Positions 10,541-35,733 of a DNA stretch of 64,000 bases are shown here, one piece after another. The position numbers were made by a program, and so were the translations under genes. The notes beneath the pieces were generated by a model. The model ran no database searches, was not told the origin of the DNA, and worked only from the letters and a program-made list of their open reading frames with translations. The DNA is from an uncultured Prevotellaceae bacterium (GTDB lineage: Bacteria; Bacteroidota; Bacteroidia; Bacteroidales; Bacteroidaceae). The number at the start of each line of letters is the position of its first letter. The stretch's first letter is position 1. The DNA lies in contig CAMHNI010000012.1 of assembly GCA_946186505.1 (NCBI GenBank), positions 1 through 64,000 of the forward strand, written 5' to 3'.

Positions 10541-10554
10541 GTTTTACGTTGTTT

Positions 10555-11646: not shown

Positions 11647-11656
11647 ATTTTGTTTT

Positions 11657-13075: not shown

Positions 13076-13080
13076 TATGC

Positions 13081-16046: not shown

Positions 16047-16541
16047 TTATCTGAAACGTTTCACGGTGGGTTCAACCAGGAACACCACATTCTTTCTGTA
16101 TGGCTGGAGCGTTCCCAGCCCGTCGTCGAGTTGCCCTTCCACGACAACGTTCACCTCGTATTTGGATGCTGTCTTCTTCCTGCGCAGAGGCCGGTCAACG
16201 GCAGTGCTTAAGACAATGGATACTGCAACATTTTTCAGCATAGGCTCGTAGGTGGCCAGACTGTTGCGAATGCTGTCCTCGCATTCCTTCTTGGTAACCT
16301 CGTTCTGCAATCCCTTCGCAACCCGCCCTAACTGGCTGTTGTTGAACTCACGGTAATGCACATTGGAGAATTCATGGTTCCAGTATTCGAAGCCAAAGTC
16401 AGGATCGGCAGCGAAACTGCCCCGTGGCGTAAACACAACAAGTTCCACCAGGTTGTCAAGCATTCTGATGTGGTCGTTGATGTCGCGGAGGATGGATGCT
16501 CCCGAATTCTGAAATACGAGAGGTGTACTGATGAAACTCAT
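16047..16541 (-). CDS. tssE: T6SS baseplate protein TssE (gp25-like)
   Basis: 164-residue GPW/gp25-family protein that connects the T6SS baseplate to the sheath. The typical N-terminal helix (GASILRDINDHIRMLDNLVELVVFTPRG) is followed by ADPDFGFEYW, the gp25 region containing the loop that initiates sheath polymerisation. A conserved basic segment (DRPLRRKKTASKYEV) lies further on. It overlaps the upstream tssK by 4 bp (ATGA), so the two are translationally coupled. Confidence 0.9.
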   Translation of the reverse strand: MSFISTPLVFQNSGASILRDINDHIRMLDNLVELVVFTPRGSFAADPDFGFEYWNHEFSNVHYREFNNSQLGRVAKGLQNEVTKKECEDSIRNSLATYEPMLKNVAVSIVLSTAVDRPLRRKKTASKYEVNVVVEGQLDDGLGTLQPYRKNVVFLVEPTVKRFR

Positions 16542-17515
16542 ATCTTCTTACCGTCCCAAAATCTGCGAGTGTCAACCTTTGGCTTTGGTGGCTCAACCTT
16601 CTGAGGCTCGGGAGCCTGTACCTGTAAGAGGCTGAACTTATCTATTTTCTCGCTAATTGAATAGCAGATGCCAAGTCCCTGTTTGATACGCAGATAAGCT
16701 ATTTTATAGTTGTATGGTGCATGTACATGGTTACGGAAAGTTTCGGCATCTTCCAATGCCAGTGCTTCGTCCATGTCGCAAGCTAAGGTAAAAGCGGCGA
16801 CAACCTGCTGGACGCATGACTGCAGGCGCATCGGTGTCATCTCTTCATGTTCGGTATTAGCCGTGATCAACATCTGCTGTACAACGGGCCAGTAGATGCT
16901 GATGGCTTTCTGTGCGCCGCCGTTTGCCTGTTGGCGTGTCTTCTCGTTGATGCTTCTCAGCAGGTCGATAAACTGCGCGTGGAGTTCTTCGAACTTGGGG
17001 TGCGATGAGAGGTACAGGCATGGTGGGACGAAACTCGTGTTGTCCTCACGCCAGCCGTTGTCGTTGACAATCCGTCCTATCGGCATCGCATTGTCGGGCA
17101 GTGCAACGTTCGGGGCAATGAGTGAGAAGACAAAAACGGGTGTCTTGTAGCCCTCGTCGTTTTCTTGCCATGCGTCAGGTTTTAAGGCAATGGCCAGAAT
17201 ATATTCCTTGACATCGTCCTGATGTGGTATTTGTACACGTGTATCAAACGAATTGGTGAATTTTGTGTCAAACTCCGTGTCGATGATTTGTCCGCCACGG
17301 GTGATGGCCAGACATGACAAGGCTTCGACATCGACAAACCCTTTGTTGACGCTGAGTGACAAGTGGAACGGTCGTGCTGAGGGGAAAAGGCCGAAACGTC
17401 CGGCAGCTGCCAAAGTCATAGCCTGGCTGATGGTTTCGTCGGCATAGCGGTCAGCCGTCTTCAGCACCTCGTCTGTCAGGCGCATTCCTTTTTTCCAGTT
17501 TATTCTTTTAAGCAT
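16538..17515 (-). CDS. tssK: T6SS baseplate protein TssK
   Basis: TssK links the baseplate to the membrane complex. This 325-residue version is shorter than proteobacterial TssK (about 440) and resembles the Bacteroidetes form, starting MLKRINWKKGMRLTDEVL and carrying a beta-sandwich shoulder region (LSCLAITRGGQIID) and PPCLYLSS before a helical C-terminal half. The end is Pro/Lys-rich. Assignment rests on the INWKKG start, overall pattern and its place between tssG and tssE. Confidence 0.82.
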   Translation of the reverse strand: MLKRINWKKGMRLTDEVLKTADRYADETISQAMTLAAAGRFGLFPSARPFHLSLSVNKGFVDVEALSCLAITRGGQIIDTEFDTKFTNSFDTRVQIPHQDDVKEYILAIALKPDAWQENDEGYKTPVFVFSLIAPNVALPDNAMPIGRIVNDNGWREDNTSFVPPCLYLSSHPKFEELHAQFIDLLRSINEKTRQQANGGAQKAISIYWPVVQQMLITANTEHEEMTPMRLQSCVQQVVAAFTLACDMDEALALEDAETFRNHVHAPYNYKIAYLRIKQGLGICYSISEKIDKFSLLQVQAPEPQKVEPPKPKVDTRRFWDGKKI

Positions 17516-17523: not shown

Positions 17524-18408
17524 TTATATATTTGCATTATAATTCAGGTAGTTTCTATTCATGTCATCACCAAGCCGTAAAGGAGGCTCGTCATGACAGA
17601 TGTTGAAGTGCAGTTCCTCTTCGACAGAGAGGAAAAAGTCTTTGACAAACACACGCAGTTCTTCAATCTCGTCGATGAATTTCAATAATCCTCCGTTACA
17701 GGCTTCGTCAGACCAGTAGTGGATGTCATAGACTGTTACCAGGTCGTCAAACGTGTTGCCGACATAACCGTCGCCTAAATCCATGTCAAGTTGGTTCTGG
17801 TAGCGGGACTCCTCGTCCGTGAAACTGATCGTTTCATGGCTGATTTCGATGCTCATTCCTTCTTCCATGAACAGCTTGCGTAGCAGTAGCGTCAGCAGCG
17901 TCTTGTTGCCACGGATTACCTTGCACTGGGGTAGGAAGGGAATTAGCTGGCAGATGAAACGGTTGTTGCGTTGCTGTTCAGTAAGACTGTCACCGATAAT
18001 CTGCTGCATGATGATGTCTTCTTCGGCAAACACTTCAGTGCGTTTTCTCACTTGGGTACGCAGCCAGATGAGCAGAATGTCGATAGGCGCAAAGAATCGG
18101 TAAGCATCCTCAATTTCCTCTTTCTGCTCTTCCAACTGCTGTGCAAAGCGCTCTTTCTCTTCGTACTTGGGCAGGTTGTCGAAGCGGTCAATGGGATGGA
18201 ACATATACTCGGGCAACGAGTTGTAGATGCTGTTCCGGCCAACGGTGAGCAGGATGCTGTCATCTGTCAGTGAGCTCATCTCAATGACATCCTTGTAAGT
18301 GTTGCGTTTGTGCAACCCCCGTAAAGCCACCTTGCAGGAGGCTTTCGGCAGGTAGTCAATGAGCAGTTCGGCGTTGATGTCGCCTGGTAGTAATTGCGGA
18401 GGAATCAT
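17524..18408 (-). CDS. tssG: T6SS baseplate protein TssG
   Basis: 294-residue protein with features of Bacteroidetes TssG: an N-terminal segment (PPQLLPGDINAELLIDYLPKA), a YMFHPIDRFDNLP motif, a long central helix with FFAPIDILLIWLRTQV, and a LIPFLPQCKVIRGN block resembling the gp53-like TssG core. It pairs with TssF in the baseplate wedge. It begins 10 bp after the E1-like gene, so the ubiquitin-like module and baseplate genes are one transcriptional unit. Confidence 0.8.
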   Translation of the reverse strand: MIPPQLLPGDINAELLIDYLPKASCKVALRGLHKRNTYKDVIEMSSLTDDSILLTVGRNSIYNSLPEYMFHPIDRFDNLPKYEEKERFAQQLEEQKEEIEDAYRFFAPIDILLIWLRTQVRKRTEVFAEEDIIMQQIIGDSLTEQQRNNRFICQLIPFLPQCKVIRGNKTLLTLLLRKLFMEEGMSIEISHETISFTDEESRYQNQLDMDLGDGYVGNTFDDLVTVYDIHYWSDEACNGGLLKFIDEIEELRVFVKDFFLSVEEELHFNICHDEPPLRLGDDMNRNYLNYNANI

Positions 18409-18418: not shown

Positions 18419-19618
18419 TTACTCATATAGTGCAGCATCGCCCGTCAGTTCCAGATGGAACACTCCCTTGTCTGTGGACACCTCTATCACGTCGAATGGG
18501 GGTATGCCAATTTGCTGAAGCGTCAGGTCCTGATAGGGGAAACGATCATCGATATTCTCATAGAAGTTCTTGTGGATGAGTGTACGGTAACTCAGCTGCC
18601 GTATCTCCTTGTTGTCCTTGATATAGGCATCTAGTTTTGATTCGGGAATCATCACGTCGAATTCCTTTTCCGGGCGGTCGGATATAATTTTGTCGATGAA
18701 TTTGTTGTTGCGCATGTTGATTTCAACAAACTCAGCCTCATATCTTGACTTCAGCCACTCCAGGACAGTGCCTACCGTCTGGCTTGCGGACAGTTCCATA
18801 CACTCCGTCACATCATCCCACTGCTCATGGGCCGGACAGGTGTTCTTCCATGAGGCAAAACGGTAGGTGTTTGTAGTGCAGGTCATGCCCTCGTAACGTA
18901 GCATCTTGCCTTGCAACGTCTTGAATGGTGGCTGTTCTTCAGGAGACAGGTGTATGATCTTCATGGCTTCCTGCACCTGCATGGCACCGATGATGGATGC
19001 ACTGATTGGTGTTGTTGCCACCCGACCTGCCTCGCCTTGGTTGCGTACCACGTCGGCACATCCGGTACGGAGCATGATATGGTTGAATTCCTCACGTGAC
19101 AATCCACATTCATAGCAGCTTAAACCTGGGGTGTAAACCTTGACGGCTCCTGTCAGATTCTCAATGCTACCGTCAATCCAGCTCTTGCCGGCTCGCATAC
19201 TCAGACGATTCAGCTGATAACGTGCTATACGGCTGTCAAGGCATCCGATGACCACATCAACTTTACGGTACAATCCGAATCCCACTTCAGAAAACAGGTT
19301 CCCCACAATGGGCGTCACTTTAATCTGAGGATTGATTTCCATGGCTCGTTTAGCCACGATATCAGCCTTGAAGGCATGGTTGTAAGCATCCTCCTCGCGG
19401 AACAGCACGGAACGGGTCAGGTTCGACAGCTCTATGCGGTCGAAGTCGGCTACATAGATGTGCCCGACTCCAAAGAGTGCCAGATTCTTGACCACTTCAT
19501 TTCCTAAGGCACCTGCTCCAGCCACTAAGACATGAGCATTCTTTACTTTGTCCTTCTTGAACCAGGAGAGGAGCGTAAAGACGCCCTCTCCCCATTCATA
19601 TTGCTGTTTGTTTTCCAT
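18419..19618 (-). CDS. ThiF/MoeB-type E1-like Ubl-activating enzyme
   Basis: Predicted to adenylate the C-terminal glycine of the Ubl at 26922-27260 and carry it as a thioester. The Rossmann fold has GAGALG (34-39), the acidic VADFD (56-60), ELSNLTRSVLF (the E1 signature with Asn66 and Arg69) and GCLDSRIARY (Asp128). A Cys pair at 168/171 plus CPAH (Cys261, His264) could form the structural zinc site. Cys187, in the crossover loop just before the final adenylation-domain helix, is the best candidate catalytic Cys. About 130 C-terminal residues (from about 270) are beta-rich and may be an E2/Ubl-binding domain. At 399 residues it is longer than MoeB (about 250). Spacers to neighbours are 10-11 bp. 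It is not a thiamine or molybdopterin locus. Confidence 0.9.
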   Translation of the reverse strand: MENKQQYEWGEGVFTLLSWFKKDKVKNAHVLVAGAGALGNEVVKNLALFGVGHIYVADFDRIELSNLTRSVLFREEDAYNHAFKADIVAKRAMEINPQIKVTPIVGNLFSEVGFGLYRKVDVVIGCLDSRIARYQLNRLSMRAGKSWIDGSIENLTGAVKVYTPGLSCYECGLSREEFNHIMLRTGCADVVRNQGEAGRVATTPISASIIGAMQVQEAMKIIHLSPEEQPPFKTLQGKMLRYEGMTCTTNTYRFASWKNTCPAHEQWDDVTECMELSASQTVGTVLEWLKSRYEAEFVEINMRNNKFIDKIISDRPEKEFDVMIPESKLDAYIKDNKEIRQLSYRTLIHKNFYENIDDRFPYQDLTLQQIGIPPFDVIEVSTDKGVFHLELTGDAALYE

Positions 19619-19629
19619 ATCCCAATAGT

Positions 19630-22035
19630 TTAAGCCTCTACATATTCAAACACGGTATCGCCGACCTTGAATGTGTCGTTGTTGGAAAGGATGATAGGCT
19701 TGTTGACAGGCAAATCTGTCCTGACATTATAGATGACGTTGGCAGCTAAAGGTTTCAGCATGGGCAACGACTTCGCATGGTCGATGTACAGCTGTACATG
19801 CTGCTTGGCTACTTTGTTGCTCTTCTCCCAGTTCATCTGAATCTCACATTCTCCCGTCATACCGATATGTACAATATTGCCACCGCCGGTGGCGTTCATC
19901 CATTTGTGGATAGGTATCTTCTGACCGGCCTTCACGCCGTTCTTGATGACCAGGAAGTACTTCTCTGCCAACATTCTCACGGTCACGAGTGAAGCTCCCA
20001 GACCACCACCGTAAATGACGAAGTCGAGCAACATGTTAAGCCATCCGGCACTGGTACTGACAGCGGCTCCGAGATAGAGCACGAAGAAACCGATGATGGC
20101 AGAGCAGAGACCGCCGAGAAGGGCACTCTTTAGGGGGATAGATGACTTGATGGTCAGGCTCAGAGCCGTACATACCGAGAACAGAATGTAGGCTGGCAAT
20201 GAGCAGTACCAGGGAATATAGGTTGTTCCTACTACAGACAGGAGCAAGCAGAAGATGATACCGCCCACCGCGAAGGCCAGCATACCGACAAGCCCTGATA
20301 GGAGTGACAAACCAATAATCTTCAAGTAAATCTTGAAGTCTTTCTTACGGTATTCATCGTTATAGCGGAAAGCAAACGACAGGAAGAAACCCAACAGCAG
20401 ACCTACTGTAAGGAAGGCCGACACCTTGCCAGCGCAATCGCTCATCAGGTTGCCCATCTGCTCCTTGTTGTAGAAGAACGTGTTCGCAATGGCTGAGCCG
20501 ATGGTGGGGAACAGTCCACGCCCTGTGATCTCGAAAATAATCCAGCTGACCAAACCAGCCACGATACCGGATATCGTCTGGTAGCTGTCACGCATTGATG
20601 ACTTGGTGAAAAGCTCTTTCCAATCCACATAATCCTGTATGCCGTCCTTGCAGTTCTGGCCGTATTCTACACATTTGTAGCCGTTCTGCTGCCAGCATCC
20701 GACGTGAATGATATGCTTGCATTTCGTCACCACCTTCTGGCCGGGCAGTATGTCCTGCCGACAATAGGTGCAGATGCGGCGCTGCACATTCTCCTCGGGA
20801 ACATAGTTCTGATAGTATTTCGAGGCGAAGCGCTTGGAGTTGATGAAAGGTATCAGAACTTTTGAAATCAGGAAGAATAACAGGAATGTCAATAATGCAA
20901 TGAGGAGAGCGACAACCAGCTTAACTGCAGCACTTCCTGCACTTTCTTCCTTGATGGGCCACGGGGTTTCTGCTGTGCCGATGGAATAGTCGCATTCACC
21001 AGCCTCCTTACCCTTCCACTCAGCAGTATAGGTAACCTTGCCCGTATATGCTTTGTCGTCGGTGGCCTTGTAAATGAAAGCAAAGTCGTACATGGCATCC
21101 TTCACAGCCTGCTGGAAGTTGCTGAGCACATTGCTCAGGTCTGCCGAGGGCTTGTAGGCTCCCTGCCGGTCGGCAAGCACCTTGCCAGTGGAATCGCGGG
21201 GGGCTGATACTCCCTGAAGCGTCAGTTCCACGTTCTCGTCCATACCGTCACCGGTGTAATAGAACGCGAATACCTTTGGAACCATGTTTTCTGCATTAGA
21301 CTGATAGTCTGTCACTTCAACGAACGATATGGTTTCATCGCTGGCACGCTGGTTGCCGTCTATGAATACAAAGAGAATGTTCTTGTCCTTGGCTTTCATG
21401 GATCGGCGGGCAATGAGTTCATTCTTGGTGTAGCCAGTCTTGGCAATGACCGATCCCTCCAACTCTGCGGGCTTGGTGCTGAACTCTGCCAGTTTCGAGT
21501 AAAGTGCGCCATAGAAGTACTTGTTCTCAGAATGATCCTTGAACTTTGGCTCAAAGTCGGGCAAGTTTTTCTTAGTTACTAACTGGCTGGACGTTACCTC
21601 GTCGCCAAAGAATGACAGATATACACAACTGTCGGGAGCACTCTCCACAAGCTGGCTGAAGGCCTCGAAGATCTGGCCTTTGCCACTTTCTGGAATGCTG
21701 AGGTCAACCAGCACCGAGAAGGTGAAATCACCAGGTATGCGCTGACCTGAACTGAGGGATACAATCTGACTGCGGTCTGAGGCAATCATCGTTCCTTCCT
21801 CGTTGATGACGAGGTACTTCTCCAGGTCGCTCACTGTGATGTCAGCACTTGAGTTCCCTTCACTGTCAAGAACTTTCAGGAAAAGCGTAATGCTGTCCTT
21901 GCCAAGTCCGTACTCGTATTTCTTGTCACAGAACTGAATCCGTGAAACATCTTGTGCGCAAACATGCAATGCCAATGCAAGCATGGCGCAAACTGTCCAT
22001 ATTCTTTGCATCATTATCTGCTTCTTTTTGTCCAT
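19630..22035 (-). CDS. vWA-like / RING-H2-like / multi-TM / FHA-like membrane protein, candidate E3
   Basis: 801 residues. Signal peptide (about 1-27); extracytoplasmic vWA-like domain (about 104-330; VDLSIPES replaces a full DxSxS site); TM helix 370-392; a cytoplasmic metal-binding cluster with Cys422, Cys425, Cys439, His441, His444, Cys447, Cys455 and Cys462. That is the C3H2C3 order of RING-H2 fingers, except that six rather than two residues separate the last pair. Six or seven hydrophobic segments follow (about 485-690), then a C-terminal FHA-like domain (about 703-801: IVHIG, AKQHVQL, FKVGDTVFEY). It overlaps the upstream JAMM gene by 22 bp; a second ATG overlaps the JAMM stop (TAATG), so the start could be M8. 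Membrane-anchored E3 ligase and phospho-reader is inferred; a T6SS membrane-complex subunit is an alternative or additional role. Confidence 0.8.
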   Translation of the reverse strand: MDKKKQIMMQRIWTVCAMLALALHVCAQDVSRIQFCDKKYEYGLGKDSITLFLKVLDSEGNSSADITVSDLEKYLVINEEGTMIASDRSQIVSLSSGQRIPGDFTFSVLVDLSIPESGKGQIFEAFSQLVESAPDSCVYLSFFGDEVTSSQLVTKKNLPDFEPKFKDHSENKYFYGALYSKLAEFSTKPAELEGSVIAKTGYTKNELIARRSMKAKDKNILFVFIDGNQRASDETISFVEVTDYQSNAENMVPKVFAFYYTGDGMDENVELTLQGVSAPRDSTGKVLADRQGAYKPSADLSNVLSNFQQAVKDAMYDFAFIYKATDDKAYTGKVTYTAEWKGKEAGECDYSIGTAETPWPIKEESAGSAAVKLVVALLIALLTFLLFFLISKVLIPFINSKRFASKYYQNYVPEENVQRRICTYCRQDILPGQKVVTKCKHIIHVGCWQQNGYKCVEYGQNCKDGIQDYVDWKELFTKSSMRDSYQTISGIVAGLVSWIIFEITGRGLFPTIGSAIANTFFYNKEQMGNLMSDCAGKVSAFLTVGLLLGFFLSFAFRYNDEYRKKDFKIYLKIIGLSLLSGLVGMLAFAVGGIIFCLLLSVVGTTYIPWYCSLPAYILFSVCTALSLTIKSSIPLKSALLGGLCSAIIGFFVLYLGAAVSTSAGWLNMLLDFVIYGGGLGASLVTVRMLAEKYFLVIKNGVKAGQKIPIHKWMNATGGGNIVHIGMTGECEIQMNWEKSNKVAKQHVQLYIDHAKSLPMLKPLAANVIYNVRTDLPVNKPIILSNNDTFKVGDTVFEYVEA

Positions 22036-23819
22036 TGTTTTAATTCTTCCAGTTTTTGTTCTCCATAATATTTGATGTCCGTACTCAGGTCACCAGCAAT
22101 CACGGGGATTGATGTCAACAGACCGTCAGCCGGTGTGTAAACCAGAACGAACTTGATCTCCTCCAGCCTGTCGGCTACATATTTCCGAATACTGGGTATG
22201 CTACGGTGCTGGGCAACTACGAAGTAGCCTATCAGTGGGTTTGTGGCTTGAGCCTCGTTGTCCACTAACTGTTCGGCGAGATATTCGGTCTTTTGTCCTT
22301 GCTTGTGGGTTGTTCCGTGTATCATGCCGCCCACGCCGTTGCTACGCTCAGTCAGTGCCATGCAGATGTCCACTACCATGTTGCTGCTCAGTTCAATACC
22401 ATAGCAGTCATTGTCGTGTGTCTCTGCTTGTGCAAGTGTGTTGAAGTAGTCTTCGCTGTTGAAAGAGACGTTCCCGTTGTCACTTTCAGATTCGTCCTTG
22501 CTTTCTTTGTTTCCCTTACTCTCCTCGTTTTCCTTGCTGTTTAATGCCCATTGGTACCATTCTGCCAGGGAGTAGAGCTTCTTTAGGTCGTTCTTCGTGT
22601 TGATGGTTGTGTCGCGGTGGAACGTGAACACTCCGAGCTGCATGCCAGGTGTCAAGGTGTCAACGACGATGGCCGTGAGGAAATTGGGGTGGGTGGGATG
22701 CTTGAGCTGCATCTGCACGCTGCTGTCCGAATTGCTGAAGAAGATGCCTAATCCTGGGTGTGAGTGAATCCAGCACGTCAAGTCATACTGCAGATTTTTC
22801 TCGCGGCGTAGTTTCCTTAGTTCCTCCAGTACTTTCAGTTTGATCTTGCCGCCAAAGTTCAGTTCGTATTCCTCAAACTGTGCGTCATCACCAGGAAGTA
22901 CAATCTGCTCAAGTGAGACATAATACTCGTTGTTCTCCTCATCGTGAACCCAGCGTCCCAAGACCATGCAACCGTATTCTCGGGCCTGGTCGGGTGCATC
23001 CTGGTCGTGGACATACATATTGTAGATCTCCTCAATGCACGTGTTCTTAATGTACATACGCCGTACGGCTGATTCGTAGCAGAAGTCAACAACGTCAATC
23101 TTCATGTAGTTCGGATTGTCGATGACATCTTCCAAGCTCTGCTTTTTCAGAATGGTGGCGGTCTTGCGACGTACTACTATGCCGCTCTCTGGATTGTTGC
23201 TGCTGTGAGGATCGCGCAGGTGTACGGGTGTGCTCTCTTTTTTCTTCCCCGATTTGGAAATAGCAATGATCAGCAGGACAATTAGGAGTACACCGACAAC
23301 AATGCCGAGAATCAGTAAGGTCTGGTTGTCCAGATCGATAATAGGCTTCTCGGTCTTTGCATTCATTTCCCTTTCAAGCCGGTTCAAGCTCTGTTCGCAT
23401 GGACCTAACTTGTCGTTCAAGATAGCCTGCATCTTGTCCATGCACTTGTCACGGTCCTCAAATTCCAGTTTGGAATACCGGTCCAAGAAATCTTCTATCA
23501 GCATGCTTGACTTGCCTTGATAGCGTTCTACGGAGTCCTTCTGGTTGACAATGAAAAAACGCAGGTTGTTTGCGTTGATGTATGCCTCTTTATCCGCAGT
23601 GCTCTTGAGACAATTGATGTGATTTTCTAACTCACTTTGGAGCGACTCTACTGCCGATTTCTTCAAATATGGTATTTCCTCAATATAGGCAGCGAAAGAA
23701 TTGACGACATCTTCCGTCTTGAGAGGATCTGCCTTCCGAGGCCCTTTAATTGCCAGTACCTGTATGCCCGAGAAGAGCAATACGGCTAATAGTATTAATA
23801 ATGATTTTAGTTTTTTCAT
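22014..23819 (-). CDS. Membrane-anchored JAMM/MPN+ peptidase (candidate Ubl-processing enzyme)
   Basis: 601 residues: signal peptide (1-23), extracytoplasmic helical domain (about 30-160, with Cys70, Cys126 and Cys141), TM helix (167-188), then a cytoplasmic JAMM metalloprotease domain (about 245-420). All zinc and catalytic ligands are present: Glu281 in REYGCMVLG, the HSHP motif (His352, His354), Ser362 and Asp365. JAMM enzymes cut after Gly-Gly in ubiquitin-like proteins. Expected jobs are trimming the three-residue tail of the Ubl at 26922-27260 and removing it from targets. The C-terminal 170 residues (from about 435) resemble a second, catalytically incomplete MPN-like fold; this is tentative. 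It follows the coiled-coil protein gene by 7 bp. Confidence 0.9.
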   Translation of the reverse strand: MKKLKSLLILLAVLLFSGIQVLAIKGPRKADPLKTEDVVNSFAAYIEEIPYLKKSAVESLQSELENHINCLKSTADKEAYINANNLRFFIVNQKDSVERYQGKSSMLIEDFLDRYSKLEFEDRDKCMDKMQAILNDKLGPCEQSLNRLEREMNAKTEKPIIDLDNQTLLILGIVVGVLLIVLLIIAISKSGKKKESTPVHLRDPHSSNNPESGIVVRRKTATILKKQSLEDVIDNPNYMKIDVVDFCYESAVRRMYIKNTCIEEIYNMYVHDQDAPDQAREYGCMVLGRWVHDEENNEYYVSLEQIVLPGDDAQFEEYELNFGGKIKLKVLEELRKLRREKNLQYDLTCWIHSHPGLGIFFSNSDSSVQMQLKHPTHPNFLTAIVVDTLTPGMQLGVFTFHRDTTINTKNDLKKLYSLAEWYQWALNSKENEESKGNKESKDESESDNGNVSFNSEDYFNTLAQAETHDNDCYGIELSSNMVVDICMALTERSNGVGGMIHGTTHKQGQKTEYLAEQLVDNEAQATNPLIGYFVVAQHRSIPSIRKYVADRLEEIKFVLVYTPADGLLTSIPVIAGDLSTDIKYYGEQKLEELKQWTKRSR

Positions 23820-23826
23820 TTGCGTG

Positions 23827-25167
23827 TCATATTGAAACGTTGTTGTTTGGCGATTGCCCTGGTTTGCGCCACCTCTTGTATTTCGCGGGTATTTGGTCGT
23901 TCAGGGATGGCTTCTTAGGTTGGGGCTTGGGCGCTTCCTGAGTCTCAGGCTTTTTTTTCATTTGCTGGAGGCGCTGCTTGGCAGCTTCGCCTTCCTTGCT
24001 GAGTGTGCGCCGGGTCTTCTGCGCAATCTGTTGCTCTACTTGATGTTGAGCTTGCTGCATACCAGGCACATTGCCGAATGGGTTTGCTGCGCCAACACCA
24101 CCGCCGGCCATTTTCGAGATGTCCTCCATCATTTTCCGTTGGGCTTTCTGTAGCTGGGTGTTCTTGATGGTCTGGAATACCTGTTTGCCGCCCAAGAAGA
24201 GCAGAGCCAATCCACCAATGCCGCCTACAAGCCACATCATCTCTTTCTTGTCCTTGGCAGCCTGTAGGGCTGACATGGCCGAAAGAGAGTCTGTACGGGC
24301 TTGGGCAGCCTGGTTGGCCTGAGCCTGGGCATTGGCAGCAGCCTGCTGGTTGGCCTCGGCCTGTGTCTCCAGTTCCTGCTTCTTGTTTTCGTAGGCCTCA
24401 AGCGTCGCAGTGATTTGCTGGCTGATGTCAGGGTCGGTGATTTTGAAGCGAAGTTCGCGAAGCATCGACACCTCATGGGTCAAATCTTCTGAGAGTGGCA
24501 ATTTGGTGGCTTTGTCCAGCATAGATCTGATGGTGCTGATACGGATGGATGCCTCGTCAACAGGAGCAATGCCTTCGTCCACCAACTCTTCGGATGTGAT
24601 GGTTGTCTCACCTCCTGGCAGATTGTCAGAACCGTTCCCTGCAGCCATGCCGCCGCTACGGGACTTGTTAGGCTTTACTTCCAATTGTAGCATGCCACAC
24701 TGGCCGAATACCTTGTAATGGCGCTTCTTCTCGTAATGTGCCAAATAGAGTGGTATGGACAAGTTGGCCTCTTCGCCTGGCTTTACGGTGAACTGTAGGA
24801 CCGGGCTGTCCTGCAATAGGAAAAAACCGTCCGATGATGGTGTGTAAGTCACATTCGACGGAATCATAAAGGCATTTGTCCCCTGACCGTCGAAATTGAT
24901 GTCCCTATAGTTGCCTGTCCGGTCAAAGATGACAACTGCTATCTCATCGAGCTTCTTGTATTTCTCTTTTGTGCGTGCGCCCAGCTTTTTCAAGACCGTA
25001 TTGAACTTAACGGTTACCTGTCCGCCGTTTTGAGTCAAGCTGTAATCCACGATGACTCTGTCGCCGCCGGATGAGTAAAGCGTGTCTTTTACTTCTTTTG
25101 AAAAGACGCTGATACACCCCGTTAGGCAAAGGGCCAGGCAACATAGTTTTCGTCGCATGCTTGTCAT
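23827..25167 (-). CDS. Membrane protein with periplasmic beta domain and coiled coil
   Basis: 446 residues. N-terminal signal with LTGC (a possible lipobox at Cys18), a beta-rich extracytoplasmic domain (about 25-165), an Ala/Gln-rich coiled coil (about 250-305), a TM helix (310-328) and a cytoplasmic, basic, Pro/Gln-rich tail of about 115 residues. The beta domain resembles the N-terminal half of the neighbouring 25164-26213 product: both show PLYLAHYEKK/PIYIAKYKGK-type strands after a Lys-rich core, suggesting duplication. ATGA overlap with that gene indicates translational coupling. I do not recognise the family; it may be a membrane-complex subunit of this T6SS. Confidence 0.65.
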   Translation of the reverse strand: MTSMRRKLCCLALCLTGCISVFSKEVKDTLYSSGGDRVIVDYSLTQNGGQVTVKFNTVLKKLGARTKEKYKKLDEIAVVIFDRTGNYRDINFDGQGTNAFMIPSNVTYTPSSDGFFLLQDSPVLQFTVKPGEEANLSIPLYLAHYEKKRHYKVFGQCGMLQLEVKPNKSRSGGMAAGNGSDNLPGGETTITSEELVDEGIAPVDEASIRISTIRSMLDKATKLPLSEDLTHEVSMLRELRFKITDPDISQQITATLEAYENKKQELETQAEANQQAAANAQAQANQAAQARTDSLSAMSALQAAKDKKEMMWLVGGIGGLALLFLGGKQVFQTIKNTQLQKAQRKMMEDISKMAGGGVGAANPFGNVPGMQQAQHQVEQQIAQKTRRTLSKEGEAAKQRLQQMKKKPETQEAPKPQPKKPSLNDQIPAKYKRWRKPGQSPNNNVSI

Positions 25168-26213
25168 AGGTTCTTGATGCGGTTGTAGCGTTCTATGATC
25201 TTGTTCTTGTAGTCACCGCCCTTTTTCCATGCTGCAGCATGCTTACTACAACTGGCATCGGTGCAACACTGATAAAGCGCATTCACCTGACTAATGACAC
25301 TGGCCTTGGCTTCCTGTCGGTTGCTGCTGCTATAGATTTTCTTGTAGCAGTCATCCAACTTGTGGTAAATTTGCTGAAGTGATAGTGCACAATAGCTGCA
25401 TGTGTGACCTGAACGATCTTTATGCCTGCCACAGTCGCCTTCACGGAAACTCACGTTGTCAAGCTTTTCCTTCAACGCATTAAAGCGCTTATAGCCTGCA
25501 TCTCCTGCTGACCAACCATGGGCGGCAATGATGCCATCGACTTTCTCCTTCAGTGCGTTGACCTTGCTCTCGTAGGACTCCTTTTGCTTACTGAGCGATG
25601 GCTTGTGTTTAGGATTCGTGCAGAAAATCTTCCCTGACAATTCCTTCTCCAGTTTCTCTACTTCACCGCTGACGGAGAGAAACTCCTTGCTGGGTTTCAG
25701 TGAAGCCTCGATGTCAAGTTCTATCACTTGCTTTTCGAGCAGGATGAGTTTTTTCTTTCCCTTGTATTTGGCAATGTAGATAGGCATGATGCATTTGGTG
25801 ACCTGGTCGTTGTTAACCGTAACGGCGGGTATCCTTAGCTTGTCCGACGGCTTGAAAAGCATCACCTGGTTCAACTTGTTGTTGTATGGGTCGATGATTC
25901 GCTTGTTCTTGGTACCGCCGAACTTCTTGTCAAACCGTATGGAGGTTGGCATTTTTTTAATGCTTTTTTCCGAATAGGCCTGATCGAACAGAATCAGTAC
26001 GTTCGATTCGTCCAGGTTTTCCAGTTCGATGTTCACCGAGGCTGCATCATCACTGTTAGCATCGTTCAGGGTGGCAAAGATGTTGCAGTACCCTAAGCTG
26101 ATAGTCTCCTGGGTGTGGTCTCCACTCAGACTCACTTTCTTTTGCTCGTCGGCTTGTGCGGAGAGTATTGTCAAACAAAGGCCAAAGGCCAGAAATAAAA
26201 ATTTTCTCATCAT
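25164..26213 (-). CDS. Secreted Cys-rich protein of unknown function
   Basis: 349 residues with a signal peptide (about 1-21, ending AQA). The first half is a beta domain related to that of the next gene. The second half is helical and Cys/His-rich (FCTNPKHK, DCGRHKDRSGHTCSYC, QCCTDASCSKH), pointing to disulfides in the periplasm or to a metal site. No TM helix besides the signal. It lies 21 bp after the E2-like gene and overlaps the downstream gene by 4 bp (ATGA). A structural part of the envelope complex is plausible; not recognised. Confidence 0.65.
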   Translation of the reverse strand: MMRKFLFLAFGLCLTILSAQADEQKKVSLSGDHTQETISLGYCNIFATLNDANSDDAASVNIELENLDESNVLILFDQAYSEKSIKKMPTSIRFDKKFGGTKNKRIIDPYNNKLNQVMLFKPSDKLRIPAVTVNNDQVTKCIMPIYIAKYKGKKKLILLEKQVIELDIEASLKPSKEFLSVSGEVEKLEKELSGKIFCTNPKHKPSLSKQKESYESKVNALKEKVDGIIAAHGWSAGDAGYKRFNALKEKLDNVSFREGDCGRHKDRSGHTCSYCALSLQQIYHKLDDCYKKIYSSSNRQEAKASVISQVNALYQCCTDASCSKHAAAWKKGGDYKNKIIERYNRIKNL

Positions 26214-26234
26214 GGTCTTTTTCTCCTTAATTGA

Positions 26235-26900
26235 TTATAATGTTATTGTAATCTTCTTCTTGGTATTGCCCTCTTCCACGTTGGTAGATGGGGTGGGGGG
26301 GGCAGGCTTTGCTTCAGGCTCAGGATTGTCTTGAGCGAACTTTATCCAGCCGTTAGGCTCACCCTCTTCGCGCACCCATTCGGCCACACCCTGGTCTTCT
26401 GGATAGGGGTAGGTGTTTTGGGCATGGTACATCTGATACTTCAGGTAGCGTTCCACACGCAGTACCAAGTCCTTGATACTGGCCAGTACGCCCATCTCCT
26501 TGATGGTCAGACATACGTGCCCCTTGAAGCTGCCGCTACTGCGGATGTTCGGGTGCCAGATGTCGGTGAGGAAGGTGAATACAGGATTGCCATCGGCAGA
26601 CGGGTAGTTGTTGGGCAGCACCACACTCATCTTGTGCAGGTAGCCGAAGATGGGCTTACGTGGTGCCGGCGTGTCTTCCACGCCTACGATAGACTTGCAT
26701 CTATACCATATCTCGAACTCTGTGGGCAGTCCCATGGCATTTTTTCGCCGAATGATATACGACAGTGAGGGCTTGAATGGATTGGGACTGTTCGCCTTGC
26801 GCTTGCTACACACGGTATCCAGTTCCTTCCATTCCTGGAACAGACGGGCATCACGGCCTTTGAGTTCCTTCAGGTTGAAGTTGTTTATTGCTGGATTCAT
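26235..26900 (-). CDS. E2-like ubiquitin-conjugating enzyme (UBC fold)
   Basis: Predicted to accept the Ubl from the E1-like protein as a thioester and transfer it to target lysines. From the chosen ATG (26898-26900; 221 residues) the UBC fold is readable: beta strand GYLHKMSVVLPNNYP (the YPxxxP-like turn), FTFLTDIWHPNI with the canonical HPN triad (116-118), and GHVCLTI with catalytic Cys130, then helices LVLRVERYLKYQ. The C-terminal 45 residues are Pro/Glu/Lys-rich and disordered-looking. A GTG six codons upstream is in frame but lies inside an AAGTGAAA-type repeat. The gene follows the Ubl by 21 bp. Confidence 0.92.
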   Translation of the reverse strand: MNPAINNFNLKELKGRDARLFQEWKELDTVCSKRKANSPNPFKPSLSYIIRRKNAMGLPTEFEIWYRCKSIVGVEDTPAPRKPIFGYLHKMSVVLPNNYPSADGNPVFTFLTDIWHPNIRSSGSFKGHVCLTIKEMGVLASIKDLVLRVERYLKYQMYHAQNTYPYPEDQGVAEWVREEGEPNGWIKFAQDNPEPEAKPAPPTPSTNVEEGNTKKKITITL

Positions 26901-26933
26901 AACTTTTTCACTTTTCACTTTTTACTTTTTACT
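26901..26933 (-). repeat. AGTGAAAA/AGTAAAA tandem repeat spanning Ubl stop and E2 leader
   Basis: On the minus strand, 33 bp consist of AGTAAAA and AGTGAAAA-type units ending just before the E2 ATG. The first units encode the last three residues (Ser-Lys-Lys) and stop of the Ubl, directly after its Gly-Gly. Similar repeats lie upstream of tssC (35694-35733) and vgrG (31755-31796). The position just before start codons suggests an A-rich translation-enhancing leader; slippage could change the Ubl tail. Confidence 0.7.
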
Positions 26934-27260
26934 TCCTCCCGCGATGGGAACAGAAATAAGATGCAGGTGGTCCAGCGGTTGGATGTCGTAGTCGATGAGG
27001 GCCATCTCGCGACCGTTCTCGTCCTCAAACTCCAGGATGACAGGCTCCTCATCGTCTTCCATCAGTTTGCCCAACAGGTACTGGATGGGGTTGCCGCCGT
27101 TGTCCATCTTGGGCAGTTCAAACACCTGGACAATACTGTTAATCTGGTCACGTATTGTCTTGTTCGGATCGGTGACCTTCACCTCGATTTCGTCATACGA
27201 TGTACCGTCGATGGTCAGCATGACGATAAACTCTTCCTGGTAAAATTCCTGGTCTGTCAT
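26922..27260 (-). CDS. Ubiquitin-like protein with Gly-Gly plus SKK tail
   Basis: 112 residues, cytoplasmic. Predicted beta-grasp fold: strand FIVMLTIDGTSY, strand EIEVKVTDPNKTI, helix RDQINSIVQVFELP, and a last segment LIDYDIQPLDHLHLISV. The last segment matches ubiquitin's LSDYNIQ...STLHLVL spacing, down to the DY-x-IQ and LHL motifs, and leads to a Gly-Gly at 108-109. Three extra residues (SKK) must be cut before activation; a JAMM peptidase is encoded four genes further on. A YukD-like Ubl is the other possible family, but the Gly-Gly end and the E1/E2/JAMM neighbours favour a conjugated Ubl. It lies between the PAAR-like tip gene (18 bp) and the E2 gene. Confidence 0.9.
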   Translation of the reverse strand: MTDQEFYQEEFIVMLTIDGTSYDEIEVKVTDPNKTIRDQINSIVQVFELPKMDNGGNPIQYLLGKLMEDDEEPVILEFEDENGREMALIDYDIQPLDHLHLISVPIAGGSKK

Positions 27261-27278: not shown

Positions 27279-29609
27279 TTATTTGTTATTGTTATTGTTG
27301 TCGTCTGCGGTTAACTGGGCTATAGCGTCATTGTCTAACGTGTATTTGCGCTTCTCGGGATCATTTATTAAATCCACCAAATCAGGATTGTCATCGATAA
27401 TTGCGTGAGTCATTAAATCTTGACTTATTATACCTTTGCTAATTCCTGTGGCTTCATGGGTAACGACACTGTCAATCATGTCTAATCCATGAGAAACTTT
27501 GTTGTTTGACACTATTGCCAAGTCATTTTGGATTGAGTTTATAATATCATTTCTTTCACCAAGAACTTTTTTTGCATTTTGTATGATTTCATCTTCTTGG
27601 CTGATGATACCAGATGACTTGGAAACAGCTTTTTCATAGTCGTTCATGGCACTAATTACTTTTCCATTAGCATCAGTAAGCTTGTTACGTACTGGCTCAA
27701 TTCTCTTGTTAATGTCTTTCGCAACTTGTGCCGCATCTGTAACACCGTCATCTGCTAATTTTAGAGCATTTTTGGCTTCCGTCCATGCATTTTCGGCTTT
27801 CGTTAGTTTCCCCGATACTTCGAGCCATTCTGATTGAGATATTTCACCGTTCAAGTATTGTTTTAGAGCAGCTCCATTTTCTGCGCGTGCTTTTTCTAAG
27901 GCTCCTTCGGCTTCAATGAATGCCTCCTTTGCAGATTTTTGATTACGCAAGCTTGCAGTAAGGCTCTCCATGGCAGTGGCTCTTTCTTTTTGAAGCCCGT
28001 CCATAATATCTACAATTCCGTCTCTTTCTTTTATTGCCTTACTTAATTCCGTGCTCTTATTTGTGACATTCCCTTTGGCTCTTCCAAGGGCTTCAACTTT
28101 TGCAAGATTTGTATCTAATTCAGTTCCTTTAGATGTTAAGTTGTTTAATTTCTGACCCAAATTGGAACTGCTGCCTTTAGCAGTAGAATTCTTAATAGCG
28201 TTAAGCAGTCCGTCATCCGTTCCTTGGAGGAGCGATTGGAATTCGGCAGGTGTTTTCGCTTCTGCTATCTTTATTACTTCGTTTCTCCTTTTAGCTATTT
28301 GCTCTGTGACAGCAATGGCATCGTCACCTCTTGCGATATTTCTTATGCCGCTGGCTGTACCCCAAGCTCCAAGTCCTGCCATAGCGAAAGACATGATAGC
28401 TTCCATTTTCTTACCTTCCGACAAGTAAATGCCGCCATCAACACCAGTGAGAAGGGCTGAAGTGCCATCGGCTCCAACACCAACTTTTTGAGCAATATTC
28501 GCTACCTGTGCTAACTTAGCAGCTTTTGCAGCGTTTACGGCTTCAGCCGCTTTTGCAAATTTTGCCACCGAACCGGCAATTGAGGCCACTCCGCCTAATC
28601 CGAAGGTGGCAACCTTGATGGCATTATGTACATTCTCCTTCCAATTGCCGCAGTCAAATGTCACTGGAGCCGCATTGTTATTCTGCCCGTTGTCAATAAA
28701 CGAAATAATGCCTAAGCCCCAACAGACACAAACAGATTTTTGCGTGACGACAGGAACAGGTGATTGGTATCCGACGATCTGAGTTGGAAGCCAAGGCGTT
28801 GGAGCAATAGAGGCTGTACACGGCGAAGGTGTCCAGACGAATTTCTGGGCAATAGCGGAAGCCGTAATAGTCATTGACAACGTTAGTGGGTTGGCCAGAT
28901 TCCAACACGCCCCGAAACCTTCCATGTTTGCACCTGCAAGCACGTCAGCAGGTATGATTACCCGGTTCTTAAAAGGACCGATGAGTGTACGTTTGGGGGC
29001 AACTACATGTAGTTTCGCGAAAGCAGATCCCCAGGCGCACTGAATGATGGCATTCTCTGTACATATTGGGTCATCGCATATGCAATGTGGGTTCGTTTTG
29101 GTGGCAAATATTACGGGGTCGATTTCACTGAATGCCTTTTCAGCTTCTTCTTTGCCTTCATTGGGATCGATGTTCCCAGTAAACGCATCCCATCTTCTTG
29201 ATTCCTTTTCTTTCTCCTTAGTGGTTTCGTGTGTGACGGCTGCAATCGCACCTCCAACACCTCCTACTACGGTTCCTCCGACAGCACCAATCACCGCACC
29301 TCCAGCTGTTCCTACTGCCGTTCCCAACCCTGGGACGACTACCGTTCCTGCGGTGCCACCAGCAACAGCTACAGTAGCAGCGCCAGTGGTAGCGCCTACA
29401 ACAGCACCGCCAGCCATTCCTATTCCGACTCTGTTTAGCGTAGGATCATAGTTGTCATTGGAGTAGCTCCAACTTTCAGTTACTAAATTACCTACGCTTT
29501 TAACATCATCCCAAAAAGAAGTTTCCTTTTTGTCGGATGATGAATCTTTAGCCGGAGGGGTGTTGTTGCTGTTCTTGCTTTTTATTTTGTCGTCTGTTGT
29601 ATCTGCCAT
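27279..29609 (-). CDS. PAAR-like (DUF4280) T6SS tip protein with long C-terminal extension
   Basis: 776 residues. A hydrophilic N-terminus is followed by a Gly/Ala/Val-rich hydrophobic stretch (about 62-125) like the membrane-insertion segments of many T6SS effectors. The DUF4280/PAAR-like domain (about 186-309) has the Cys-rich pattern CAWGSAFAKL, GFGACWNLANP, PCTASIAPTPWLP and CVCWGLGI, and sharpens the VgrG spike. The last 440 residues are helical: a short Ala-rich hydrophobic part (about 340-430), then long coiled coils (about 500-720). I recognise no toxin motif. No small cytoplasmic or lipoprotein immunity candidate follows; the Ubl gene comes next. Cargo carrier or effector is the likely role. 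Confidence 0.82.
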   Translation of the reverse strand: MADTTDDKIKSKNSNNTPPAKDSSSDKKETSFWDDVKSVGNLVTESWSYSNDNYDPTLNRVGIGMAGGAVVGATTGAATVAVAGGTAGTVVVPGLGTAVGTAGGAVIGAVGGTVVGGVGGAIAAVTHETTKEKEKESRRWDAFTGNIDPNEGKEEAEKAFSEIDPVIFATKTNPHCICDDPICTENAIIQCAWGSAFAKLHVVAPKRTLIGPFKNRVIIPADVLAGANMEGFGACWNLANPLTLSMTITASAIAQKFVWTPSPCTASIAPTPWLPTQIVGYQSPVPVVTQKSVCVCWGLGIISFIDNGQNNNAAPVTFDCGNWKENVHNAIKVATFGLGGVASIAGSVAKFAKAAEAVNAAKAAKLAQVANIAQKVGVGADGTSALLTGVDGGIYLSEGKKMEAIMSFAMAGLGAWGTASGIRNIARGDDAIAVTEQIAKRRNEVIKIAEAKTPAEFQSLLQGTDDGLLNAIKNSTAKGSSSNLGQKLNNLTSKGTELDTNLAKVEALGRAKGNVTNKSTELSKAIKERDGIVDIMDGLQKERATAMESLTASLRNQKSAKEAFIEAEGALEKARAENGAALKQYLNGEISQSEWLEVSGKLTKAENAWTEAKNALKLADDGVTDAAQVAKDINKRIEPVRNKLTDANGKVISAMNDYEKAVSKSSGIISQEDEIIQNAKKVLGERNDIINSIQNDLAIVSNNKVSHGLDMIDSVVTHEATGISKGIISQDLMTHAIIDDNPDLVDLINDPEKRKYTLDNDAIAQLTADDNNNNNK

Positions 29610-29631: not shown

Positions 29632-31734
29632 CTAATTCATAAGAATAAATTGTGCTTCCAAGAACATTGTTGCATTGCTTTTGAAAGTTGCTGCTGCCGT
29701 AGATTGTATGAGTGCTTCTGCCTTTCCTGAGATTTCCAGAGTACCTTCAAAGAGGGATATCTCACCACCGGGATTTTCCAGATGGTACGATGTCGTAATC
29801 TTGTCTTCTTTTACAGGTGCTTTTATTTCCCATTGTGCCCTTACTTCTTCTTTACGGTTGTTTGAAATGGTGTTAATTAAACCATTAGAAATATTTGTAT
29901 TGAATAGTGGCACGGTTGTTGCCTTCGGTTCTTCCTTACAAACAGCATCCTCGTATGATGACATGATGGGTTCTGGCGGCTCGACGACTACCGAATCAAC
30001 AGTCATATCGAACGTTTTGCCAACGTTTACAGTCATGTCGCGCCCGACGTTGATTTTCATATCCTGCCCGGCGGTTAGAGTGATGTCTTTGTCTGCAGAA
30101 ACCTCAACGTTGCCTTTTGATTGTATCTTTACGAGCTTGTTGTCAGAGGATAGCGTTATGGTGTAGTTGTTCTTTTTGTTGTCGTATATACGTATGTACC
30201 CGCCTTTCCCCTTATCGTGAAACTCGATGGTATGACCACAGCGGGTACGTATGGCTTTCACTTCATTGTCGCCAGGTAACCATTTCTGGTCAGGTGCGTC
30301 AACACCATTGAAGAAAGACCCCCTGACATAAGGTCGTTCGGCATTGCCAGTCTCGAAGTCAACGAGCACCTCCTCTCCGATTTCCGGAATGAAGCTGAAA
30401 CCTTTATCACCGCCACTGTAAGGCTGTGCAATACGCAGCCAGGGCGTGAACATATTATAGTCCTGTTGCAACTGCCAGCTGAACTGCACACGGATGCGTC
30501 CCAAGTGGTCGGGGTCTTCATTGTCGATGACCATAGCCCTTGAGGGTGGACACTGTGGATAGACCTCCTGGTTGCGGTAGGGAGGATAGTCGCATGCTGC
30601 TGGTATGCCTTGAAAAGTGTTGCAATACACTTCGTCGCAGGTGAACTGGTGTATTAGAGTGGTGATGAGAATCTCGTCCTGGGGCACCTCGCTTTTATCG
30701 TTTGAGCTACTGCTGGTGATGTAGTTGTCTTTGATAACCAGTTTGCTGCCAATTTTTAGCGTCGAGCAGTAGGTGCGTCCTTCGTAGATGAGCATGTTGG
30801 CACGCTCGCCGCGTGCTTGTGTTTTCGACGCAATATTGAGCACGGTGTCGCGGCTATCGACCGTTGCATAGCCACCGGAGTGCAGATTCTGCCAGGTCTC
30901 TTTGGTATATACCTCGTTGGAAGCGTCGAAAACGCTGTCGTTCAGCGTGTTCATCGGCTTCTGCATTTCCTCTTTGCCCTCTTTGACAGTCGAGTCGTTG
31001 GCGTTGTATGAGTTGGCTACTAGTTTGAAGGGGACGTGCTGCAAATCCATTCTTACGCTGTAGGTAGGCACGTCTTGGCTTGGGTATTTCAGTGTGGTGG
31101 TGTCAGGCTCGCCAAGTTGGCCGAAGTGCCACACCGTGCCGTCGTGGAAGAACCACTCACCGTAACGCCTTGCCAGTCTCTGCAGGAACTCATAGTTGTT
31201 CTCGTTGTATTGTACGGTATAGGGGATGGCATCCTCATAGCGTGGATTAACAGAAGCCTGCAACTGCCCGATGCTGGTGATGACATCGAAGACGATGTCC
31301 TGTAGTGTCATATCCTCAAACGATTTGCAGCTGGGGTTGTCCTTCAACAGCGCATCCCAACTGTAAGCCTCTACCTGAACCAGGTACTGACTTTCTGAGC
31401 GGCTGGCCGATGCACTGACAATGACTCCGTCAAATTCGATGTCGGCCACTTTGCCGTCAGCTATGTACTTGGCAATCTCCAGCTCCATGGAGTCGGTCTG
31501 GAGTGTGACGGTGACGTGTTTCCCGATGATGGAACTACAGACCGAGAACTGCGGCTCGCTGATGTCCTCCACGGGGTCCTTGCACATGGTGAACGTCAGT
31601 TTGTTCGGTTCCAATAGTCGCTGTTCCAAGGTAAAATTGTCGAGGTTGTACTGGGCACCGCCTATTTCTATCTTGAACTTGTTTGACAGGGCATCATCTA
31701 TGCCTACCGATATGCTTTTGACTGATATTGACAT
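29632..31734 (-). CDS. tssI: T6SS spike protein VgrG
   Basis: 700-residue trimeric spike. The N-terminal gp27-like part (1 to about 380) includes LEQRLLEPNKLTFT and the YNENNYEFLQRLARRYGEWF segment. A gp5-like OB fold follows (about 405-480; DPDHLGRIRVQF, PWLRIAQPYSG, EIGEEVLVDFETGN, PYVRGS), then the beta-helix needle with repeated valine strands (VEVSADKDITLTAGQDMKI). The C-terminal 100 residues beyond the needle are non-repetitive and hydrophobic near the end; they may bind the PAAR-like protein encoded 22 bp downstream. Confidence 0.96.
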   Translation of the reverse strand: MSISVKSISVGIDDALSNKFKIEIGGAQYNLDNFTLEQRLLEPNKLTFTMCKDPVEDISEPQFSVCSSIIGKHVTVTLQTDSMELEIAKYIADGKVADIEFDGVIVSASASRSESQYLVQVEAYSWDALLKDNPSCKSFEDMTLQDIVFDVITSIGQLQASVNPRYEDAIPYTVQYNENNYEFLQRLARRYGEWFFHDGTVWHFGQLGEPDTTTLKYPSQDVPTYSVRMDLQHVPFKLVANSYNANDSTVKEGKEEMQKPMNTLNDSVFDASNEVYTKETWQNLHSGGYATVDSRDTVLNIASKTQARGERANMLIYEGRTYCSTLKIGSKLVIKDNYITSSSSNDKSEVPQDEILITTLIHQFTCDEVYCNTFQGIPAACDYPPYRNQEVYPQCPPSRAMVIDNEDPDHLGRIRVQFSWQLQQDYNMFTPWLRIAQPYSGGDKGFSFIPEIGEEVLVDFETGNAERPYVRGSFFNGVDAPDQKWLPGDNEVKAIRTRCGHTIEFHDKGKGGYIRIYDNKKNNYTITLSSDNKLVKIQSKGNVEVSADKDITLTAGQDMKINVGRDMTVNVGKTFDMTVDSVVVEPPEPIMSSYEDAVCKEEPKATTVPLFNTNISNGLINTISNNRKEEVRAQWEIKAPVKEDKITTSYHLENPGGEISLFEGTLEISGKAEALIQSTAAATFKSNATMFLEAQFILMN

Positions 31735-33741: not shown

Positions 33742-33834
33742 AGGTTATATATTAATAAGGTATAAGGACGGGAAAACATAGTAGGAGTTTCCGGCTCAGT
33801 TTTTGTGCCGGAAACTCCAGAGAGGTGCGGGCGA

Positions 33835-34242: not shown

Positions 34243-34291
34243 AATTTTGATTTTTTTAGGGGTTAATAATAATTGTTAATTATAAAAAGGT

Positions 34292-35674: not shown

Positions 35675-35693
35675 AGTTTTTTGTCATTTTTAG

Positions 35694-35733
35694 TTTTTCA
35701 CTTTTCACTTTTCACTTTTCACTTCTCACTTCT
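35694..35733 (-). repeat. AAGTGAAA tandem repeat upstream of tssC
   Basis: Reading the minus strand, about four consecutive copies of an 8-bp AAGTGAAA unit (plus degenerate units) fill the 63-bp spacer between tssB and tssC. Comparable tracts precede the E2 and vgrG genes. They may serve as A-rich ribosome-loading leaders; Bacteroidetes often lack strong Shine-Dalgarno motifs. Confidence 0.7.

Follow-up and report, generated by a model that had tools for sequence, protein, structure and literature searches.

Gene content of the locus

The window, that is, the whole 64,000-nucleotide stretch analyzed here, lies on a 74-kb contig (G000:C12) in the genome of a Prevotella-like gut bacterium, and the closest relatives of its E1 come from Prevotellaceae. 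From 38611 to 6330, the minus strand carries a single gene run of a type VI secretion system (T6SS) that encloses a seven-gene module encoding a ubiquitin-like protein (Ubl), an E2, a pair of proteins predicted to be exported, two membrane proteins (one with a JAMM domain, the other combining vWA, RING and FHA) and an E1 (all features below are on this strand unless stated otherwise). The module is flanked by VgrG and PAAR-like genes on one side and by TssK and TssE genes on the other, and thus the preliminary description of this DNA was correct in placing a Ubl-pathway gene set inside a T6SS operon.

The run starts with genes for a ClpV-like ATPase, TssB, TssC and two Hcp proteins, one with a long N-terminal extension (31810..38611; the Pfam matches in this interval are PF17642, 1.2e-30 and 1.3e-30, PF17541, 9.8e-130, AAA_2, 1.1e-56, and a weak one for TssB, 0.018). 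The extension of the Hcp encoded at 31810-33741 comprises about 500 amino acids and is repetitive and coiled-coil-like. Next come VgrG (29632..31734; PF04717, 1.8e-20; PF05954, 2.8e-19) and a PAAR-like DUF4280 protein (27279..29609; PF14107, 2.6e-9), a candidate effector carrier with a long C-terminal part that is a possible effector. Beyond the module lie a putative TssG (17524..18408), assigned by position only, without a family match; TssK (16538..17515; TIGR03353, 9.9e-10, below its cut-off, and PF05936, 0.0013); TssE (gp25; 16047..16541; PF04965, 1.8e-4, below cut-off); and TssF (14246..16036), homologs of which match PF05947, above the cut-off in one search and below it in another. Hence, among the T6SSiii core components, TssC, TssD and VgrG are clear in the window, TssK and TssE fall below cut-off, and TssG is positional. 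The remainder of the run (6330..14241) encodes, in this order, a glucosaminidase-LysM protein, a Ser/Thr kinase, a BACON protein, a second Ser/Thr kinase, a WG protein and a PP2C phosphatase, which are candidate regulators. The two kinases and the phosphatase (6330-13075) share the gene run with the module; of the 11 flanks that were fetched, 9 contain a related kinase and 7 contain PP2C. Outside the T6SS, the plus strand contains a 2213-aa ORF at 46294-52935.

Proteins of the ubiquitin-like module

The E1 (18419..19618) is of the ThiF type with an extra C-terminal domain (PF00899, 4.4e-47; UBA7, UBA6 and MoeB by profile search); the single ThiF match covers residues 23-262 of 399, and Cys187 was assigned as the catalytic cysteine by comparison. 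The E2 (26235..26918) has a UBC domain (PF00179, 2e-6, above cut-off; UBE2K-type E2 by profile, 1.2e-9), and its likely start is the ATG at 26900, with HPN at 122-124 and the catalytic Cys136 in the 227-aa numbering. Residues were counted in Bacteroidota relatives, namely the best 80 of the 90 relatives' loci plus extra fetched stretches (six were added for the E2), with repeats removed. In this census, the HPN motif and the catalytic cysteine of the E2, present in the window, are kept in 86 of 86 relatives, and Cys187 of the E1 together with twelve other tested residues in 75 of 75, so that both enzyme assignments of the preliminary description are upheld.

The membrane JAMM protein (22014..23819) is identified by profile search as a homolog of Rpn11 (2.5e-8) and is predicted to comprise a periplasmic part, a transmembrane segment (TM) near residue 178 and a cytosolic JAMM domain. 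The residues of the E..HxH..S..D pattern, E281, H352, H354, S362 and D365 in the window, are kept in all 71 complete relatives, one further relative being truncated at a contig end; the JAMM peptidase is therefore intact, as originally described. A second MPN domain in this protein was considered and rejected (0.7% probability). The neighboring gene (19630..22035) encodes the predicted E3, described earlier as a RING-H2-like protein, which it is, being in addition predicted to reside in the membrane and to contain vWA and FHA folds. Its predicted layout consists of a vWA domain (95-316), a TM, the RING-H2 (422-462), about six further TMs and an FHA fold at approximately 700-801. All eight RING ligands are present in 73 of the 75 relatives; they are lost in loci L087 and L088 and, as judged by eye, also in the eCIS-linked locus L126, where the JAMM, E2 and E1 motifs are intact. 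These losses count against the reading, developed below, that the module tags the secretion machine. The canonical phosphothreonine-binding FHA domain has a conserved arginine following the first glycine. Arginine occupies this position in only 3 of the 75 relatives, and the window protein has methionine; thus, although the FHA fold holds by fold prediction, a phosphothreonine-gated E3 was dropped from consideration.

The two predicted exported proteins are characterized by hydrophobic N-termini and by family alignments. The first, p349 (25164..26213), is cysteine-rich and has no Pfam match. The second, p446 (23827..25167), consists of a predicted exported N-terminal part and a basic tail, and has no significant Pfam match; a hydrophobic stretch near 312-331 is visible by eye and is not flagged by TM prediction.

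The Ubl (26922..27260, 112 aa, C-terminus PIAGGSKK) is modeled by AF2 as one beta-grasp domain, the fold expected from the preliminary description, with EccD5 and ISG15 as fold matches and the EccD Ubl among the best of them. It aligns by hhalign to homologs that match YukD, and the Ubls of deep relatives match YukD as well. The Gly-Gly followed by a tail, reported earlier, is present in the window but is not a general trait: of the Ubls in 83 other loci, 74 end in AG and five in PG, the four tailed exceptions being L077 (GR), L084 (YLVV), L085 (A) and L088 (SRIDR). Even the Ubl of L072, which is 99% identical to that of the window over the shared part, ends in IAG, so the GSKK tail beyond AG is exceptional to the window Ubl. 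Beyond these 83, the eCIS-linked Ubls end in LVPG (L126) and LVPGGK (L127). Since 79 of the 83 Ubls are encoded with glycine as the last residue, the JAMM protein is dispensable for maturation in those lineages, and its conservation where maturation is needless makes a deconjugase likelier than a maturation enzyme; in the window itself, the GSKK tail implies that processing would come first. In locus L079 (9415-10540), a tandem pair of E2 genes follows a single Ubl gene.

Linkage and co-divergence with the T6SS

One scan of genome contigs identifies 90 relatives, the best 80 of which were taken as loci. The preliminary description had proposed looking for the same gene set in other T6SS loci, and a T6SS core gene is present in 70 of these 80. 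In the closer loci that reach far enough, the order VgrG – variable cargo – Ubl – E2 – p349 – p446 – JAMM – RING – E1 – TssG – TssK recurs on one strand. Among the ten loci that contain no T6SS core gene, six are short or cut (L022, L075, L080, L082, L085, L089), and L087 has TssC elsewhere on the same contig by coordinates, leaving L051, L084 and L090. At the genome level, TssC is found in 42 of the 48 module genomes (covering 48 of the 80 loci); it is found in 16 of the 393 genomes of an even order sample. The six module genomes lacking TssC include those of L034 and L035, which yet have TssG/TssK matches beside the module, and that of L082, a short locus; the other three, L051, L084 and L090, look truly T6SS-free, which counts against tagging of the machine.

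The E1-E2-Ubl-RING-JAMM set is under strong purifying selection (Ubl dN/dS 0.009 against L072 and 0.025 against L011; TssC for comparison 0.030 and 0.025, respectively); for many other genes, dS exceeds 2 or is not computable, and their ratios are rough. Pairwise distances over the loci up to L074 correlate with those of TssC for the E1 (rho 0.87), the RING protein (0.86), the positional TssG (0.87), the JAMM protein (0.73), p349 (0.69), the Ubl (0.67), p446 (0.62) and the E2 (0.54); p values are omitted, as the pairs are interdependent. For VgrG against every module gene, rho ranges from -0.20 to 0.09, with the best-scoring VgrG taken per locus, a choice among paralogs that may add noise. Given that the module tracks TssC and not VgrG, it appears to be part of the machine rather than of the exchangeable tip.

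These data bear on the possibility that the Ubl is attached to VgrG, PAAR proteins or effectors, for loading or to keep them inactive until firing. In favor of such tagging of cargo, the Ubl gene adjoins the PAAR-like gene with VgrG close by, and the region separating the eCIS from the module in genomes G566 and G660 contains eCIS_core cargo and a PAAR gene. Against this, VgrG does not co-diverge with any module gene, the PAAR-like matches located upstream of the Ubl are not constant among loci, either in occurrence or in length, whereas the module is, and the predicted membrane anchoring of the RING and JAMM proteins better suits the base of the machine, so that we consider cargo an unlikely target. 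The preliminary description had left open whether the organism modifies its own apparatus or its cargo. Purifying selection, membership in the T6SS operon and co-divergence with the core make the apparatus the best reading; the missing co-divergence with VgrG weakens the cargo half of the proposal, although the eCIS-linked relatives nonetheless adjoin eCIS cargo genes.

Relationship to the TssN/TssO/TssR membrane complex

According to the part of PMC10781749 drawn upon here, the TssNQOPR membrane complex or part of it is present in all 443 T6SSiii studied, tssN is systematically located between tssK and tssG, and, for TssN-type systems, docking of the baseplate is a proposed role of the Ubl-like domain in TssN. 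There is no tssN between the positional tssG and tssK of the window, and the TssN/TssO/TssR profiles (PF17555, PF17561, PF17643) have no match in its genome. Among the 16 TssC genomes of the order sample, six have TssN (above cut-off), five have the E2, none has both, and five have neither (G304, G297, G315, G318, which is a fragment, and G374). TssO is found in four of four TssN genomes versus none of five module genomes, and TssR in two of four versus none of five, all three proteins being absent from the five module genomes examined. Across the 48 module genomes, TssN is detected above cut-off once, in Neolewinella, and four more matches fall below the cut-off. Thus, systems of the TssN type and systems of the module type are largely mutually exclusive.

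Two observations count against replacement of one set by the other. In Neolewinella, the only exception to mutual exclusion, TssN is encoded inside the module's own cluster, which also counts against tagging of the machine. In genome G304, a T6SS of this TssC type occurs without the module and without TssN, TssO and TssR, and therefore the module is not the sole alternative to this complex. Replacement of the TssN complex by the module is accordingly plausible but not proven. Among the proteins encoded in the T6SS of G304 (L095, L096) are a kinase-FHA fusion and an M23 peptidase.

A related explanation is that the RING protein and its exported neighbors themselves constitute the membrane complex of this T6SS, with the Ubl enzymes serving quality control of assembly rather than firing. 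It is compatible with tagging of the base and does not exclude it. The genome that has neither set (G304), the one that has both (Neolewinella) and the lack of sequence homology between the RING protein and TssN or TssR all speak against it, and we regard it as somewhat improbable. Derivation of the RING protein from TssN or TssR was rejected as sequence homology (hhalign probabilities 6.5%, 3.8% and 0.5%), a negative result that also counts against tagging of the machine in place of TssN. The PDB fold lists likewise showed no relative of TssN or TssR to the eye, which is no evidence of absence.

Relatives outside the T6SS and a second gene order

The deep relatives of the module adjoin eCIS, another contractile injector, or show no injector. 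Of the 394 genomes in an even sample of the phylum, 4 are matched by the E2 profile and 25 by TssC, and the two coincide only in the genome of the window; that just this one of the four E2 genomes has TssC counts against the module tagging the machine. In G682, the E2 has a JAB-like neighbor, and the other module genes are absent from the fetched stretch. Locus L084 adjoins genes for SrfB (1e-213) and Virul_Fac (1.8e-139), and L090 adjoins the gene of an FHA protein. In L093 and L094 (G075), the module adjoins SrfB and Virul_Fac genes, with weaker Ubl-like and JAMM-like matches further on. L051 keeps the Ubl, E2, p349, JAMM, RING and E1 genes; p446 and the T6SS core are unmatched in its 20.6-kb locus, and TssC is absent from its genome.

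Such loci could mean that the module is an autonomous envelope Ubl system, for stress or envelope signaling, that accompanies injector loci but does not act on the injectors. L051, L084 and L090 keep the module in genomes where TssC was not found, and FHA proteins or the vWA/FHA/JAMM architecture persist in non-T6SS relatives. This explanation nevertheless appears distinctly improbable in view of the recurrent gene order with the T6SS in Bacteroidales and the co-divergence with the machine; moreover, the E1 of L051 nests inside the T6SS-linked clade, which fits secondary loss of the T6SS or an assembly gap.

In G566 and G660, an E1-Ubl-E2-JAMM-RING set has as its neighbors eCIS_core cargo, a PAAR gene and the gene of an nSTAND ATPase (called by Pfam in L126 and by phmmer in L127). 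The contig of the module encodes a full eCIS in both genomes, with a sheath, four tube proteins, CIS_tube, base V, gp25, Pvc16_N and an M23 peptidase (by Pfam in G566, where three of the four tubes were scanned, and by phmmer in G660), an arrangement in line with tagging of the machine; the sheath and E1 genes are separated by about 20 kb in G566 and by about 43 kb in G660. The module and a complete eCIS share a contig in L126, L127, L129, L131, L133 and L134, with several eCIS_core cargo genes in between, one of which has a calpain-like domain. Related M23/Csd3_N2 peptidases are encoded near the module in a T6SS locus (L088:6894-8198) and in an eCIS locus (L129:12911-14347).

A second gene order occurs within the genus of the window (G018, G020, G025, G051): PAAR – E1 – TssK – TssE – TssF – Ubl – E2 – two exported genes – RING, with unnamed genes interspersed and the PAAR gene outside the fetched stretch of G025. 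The Ubls of these four genomes end in PG, and JAMM is unmatched in the fetched stretch. The lack of a JAMM match in the stretch fetched for the same-genus loci L101-L104, T6SS loci in which E1, E2, Ubl and RING follow another order, counts against tagging of the machine.

Comparison with known systems

Burroughs, Iyer and Aravind are said to have described, in 2011, bacterial operons that combine an E1 with a C-terminal domain, an E2, a RING protein, a JAB protein and a YukD-like Ubl. All five parts are found in the window, and the set probably belongs to these YukD-Ubl RING/E1/E2/JAB systems; the enzyme set may already be among those described. The mostly non-subscription literature that was searched gave no account of Ubl systems embedded in T6SS or eCIS loci, nor of the mutual exclusion with TssN.

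To our knowledge, the bacterial Ubl-conjugation systems with a tested role (CBASS and Bil) all act in phage defense, and the module could likewise be a Bil-style system that tags incoming or nascent phage tails and sits in a T6SS operon by chance. The enzyme classes are the same, contractile tails resemble the T6SS, and PADLOC E1-E2 models match the E1 (best 4.5e-14). The PADLOC matches, however, reflect only general ThiF similarity of the E1, the other six proteins being unmatched at E<=0.05; the genes are located within the T6SS gene order and co-diverge with TssC; and plasmid and phage collections contain no E2 match. Defense against phage is therefore a highly unlikely function. The lack of E2 matches in those collections also leaves mobile spread of the module without support. 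Type II CBASS (Cap2/Cap3) is not indicated, as the module and 18 flanking ORFs (6330-38611) include no Pfam match to a CD-NTase. The profile of the E1 matches Citrobacter BubCD (by PDB name), an E1-related bacterial protein, with 5e-12, weaker than UBA7 and MoeB; we know of no link of BubCD to a T6SS.

BilABCD, as presented in the part of PMC11354881 used here, resembles the module in that a Ubl, an E1, an E2 and a JAB protein are encoded in one operon. BilA contains two tandem Ubl domains, the E2 is of the CEHH type and the E1 is pseudodimeric, whereas the window has a single-domain Ubl, an HPN-type E2 and a single ThiF E1, as well as an extra RING/vWA/FHA membrane protein and the T6SS context. 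Hence, the Bil parallel drawn in the preliminary description extends to the type of chemistry but not to the two-domain Ubl, the CEHH-type E2 or the pseudodimeric E1.

With T6SSiii that contain TssNQOPR, as covered by the relevant part of PMC10781749, the window shares homologous sheath, tube, spike, TssK and TssE, but TssN, TssO and TssR are undetected and Ubl enzymes are found instead. The T7SS variants c-f, in the portion of PMC11217815 considered, show YukD-like Ubl, vWA, kinase, PPM phosphatase and FHA proteins across secretion loci, as here; that portion does not name E1, E2, RING or JAMM, the terms RING and JAB do not occur in the text, and these variants are without a contractile machine.

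Proposed function

We propose that the Ubl cascade reversibly tags a component of the membrane-facing base of the machine, likely in place of the missing TssN dock, a proposal with about an even chance of being correct. Judging by the conserved residues, the E1 would adenylate the C-terminal glycine of the Ubl and hand the Ubl over to Cys136 of the E2 by thioester relay. The RING of the multi-pass protein, acting as E3, would bring E2~Ubl to the inner membrane on its cytosolic side, with the vWA domain in the periplasm under the predicted topology. The Ubl would then be joined to a base component, possibly TssK or TssG, or to a membrane protein of the module, and the membrane JAMM protein would take the tag off and reset the site, with a possible effect on docking or firing. 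A base target at the membrane is preferred because the RING and JAMM proteins are predicted membrane proteins with cytosolic active domains, because the module co-diverges with the core but not with the tip, and because TssN, the proposed baseplate dock, is missing. Reversible tagging of the machine at the membrane, taken by itself, we hold to be evenly balanced between right and wrong. The boldest step, in which the attached Ubl is a 'detachable dock' that does the job proposed for the Ubl-like domain of TssN, is doubtful. In the wider scheme, a Ubl conjugation cycle would be a working part of bacterial contractile injectors: in Bacteroidales, a Ubl attached by a membrane RING ligase and taken off again by a membrane JAMM would stand in for the fixed TssN dock, and in another lineage the same module would serve eCIS particles. 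We put this scheme forward only tentatively and consider it improbable.

If correct, such cascades would have acquired a new use, as part of a secretion machine, and bacteria would be using protein tagging to run a weapon, the T6SS being an injector of toxins. Envelope anchoring of a T6SS without detectable TssN, TssO and TssR becomes testable, and the recurrence beside eCIS makes a general link of Ubl tagging with contractile injectors testable as well. The module is present in the named strains Xylanibacter muris PMUR, Palleniella intestinalis PINT and Barnesiella sp. An22, in which the function of a bacterial RING-JAMM cycle can be tested.
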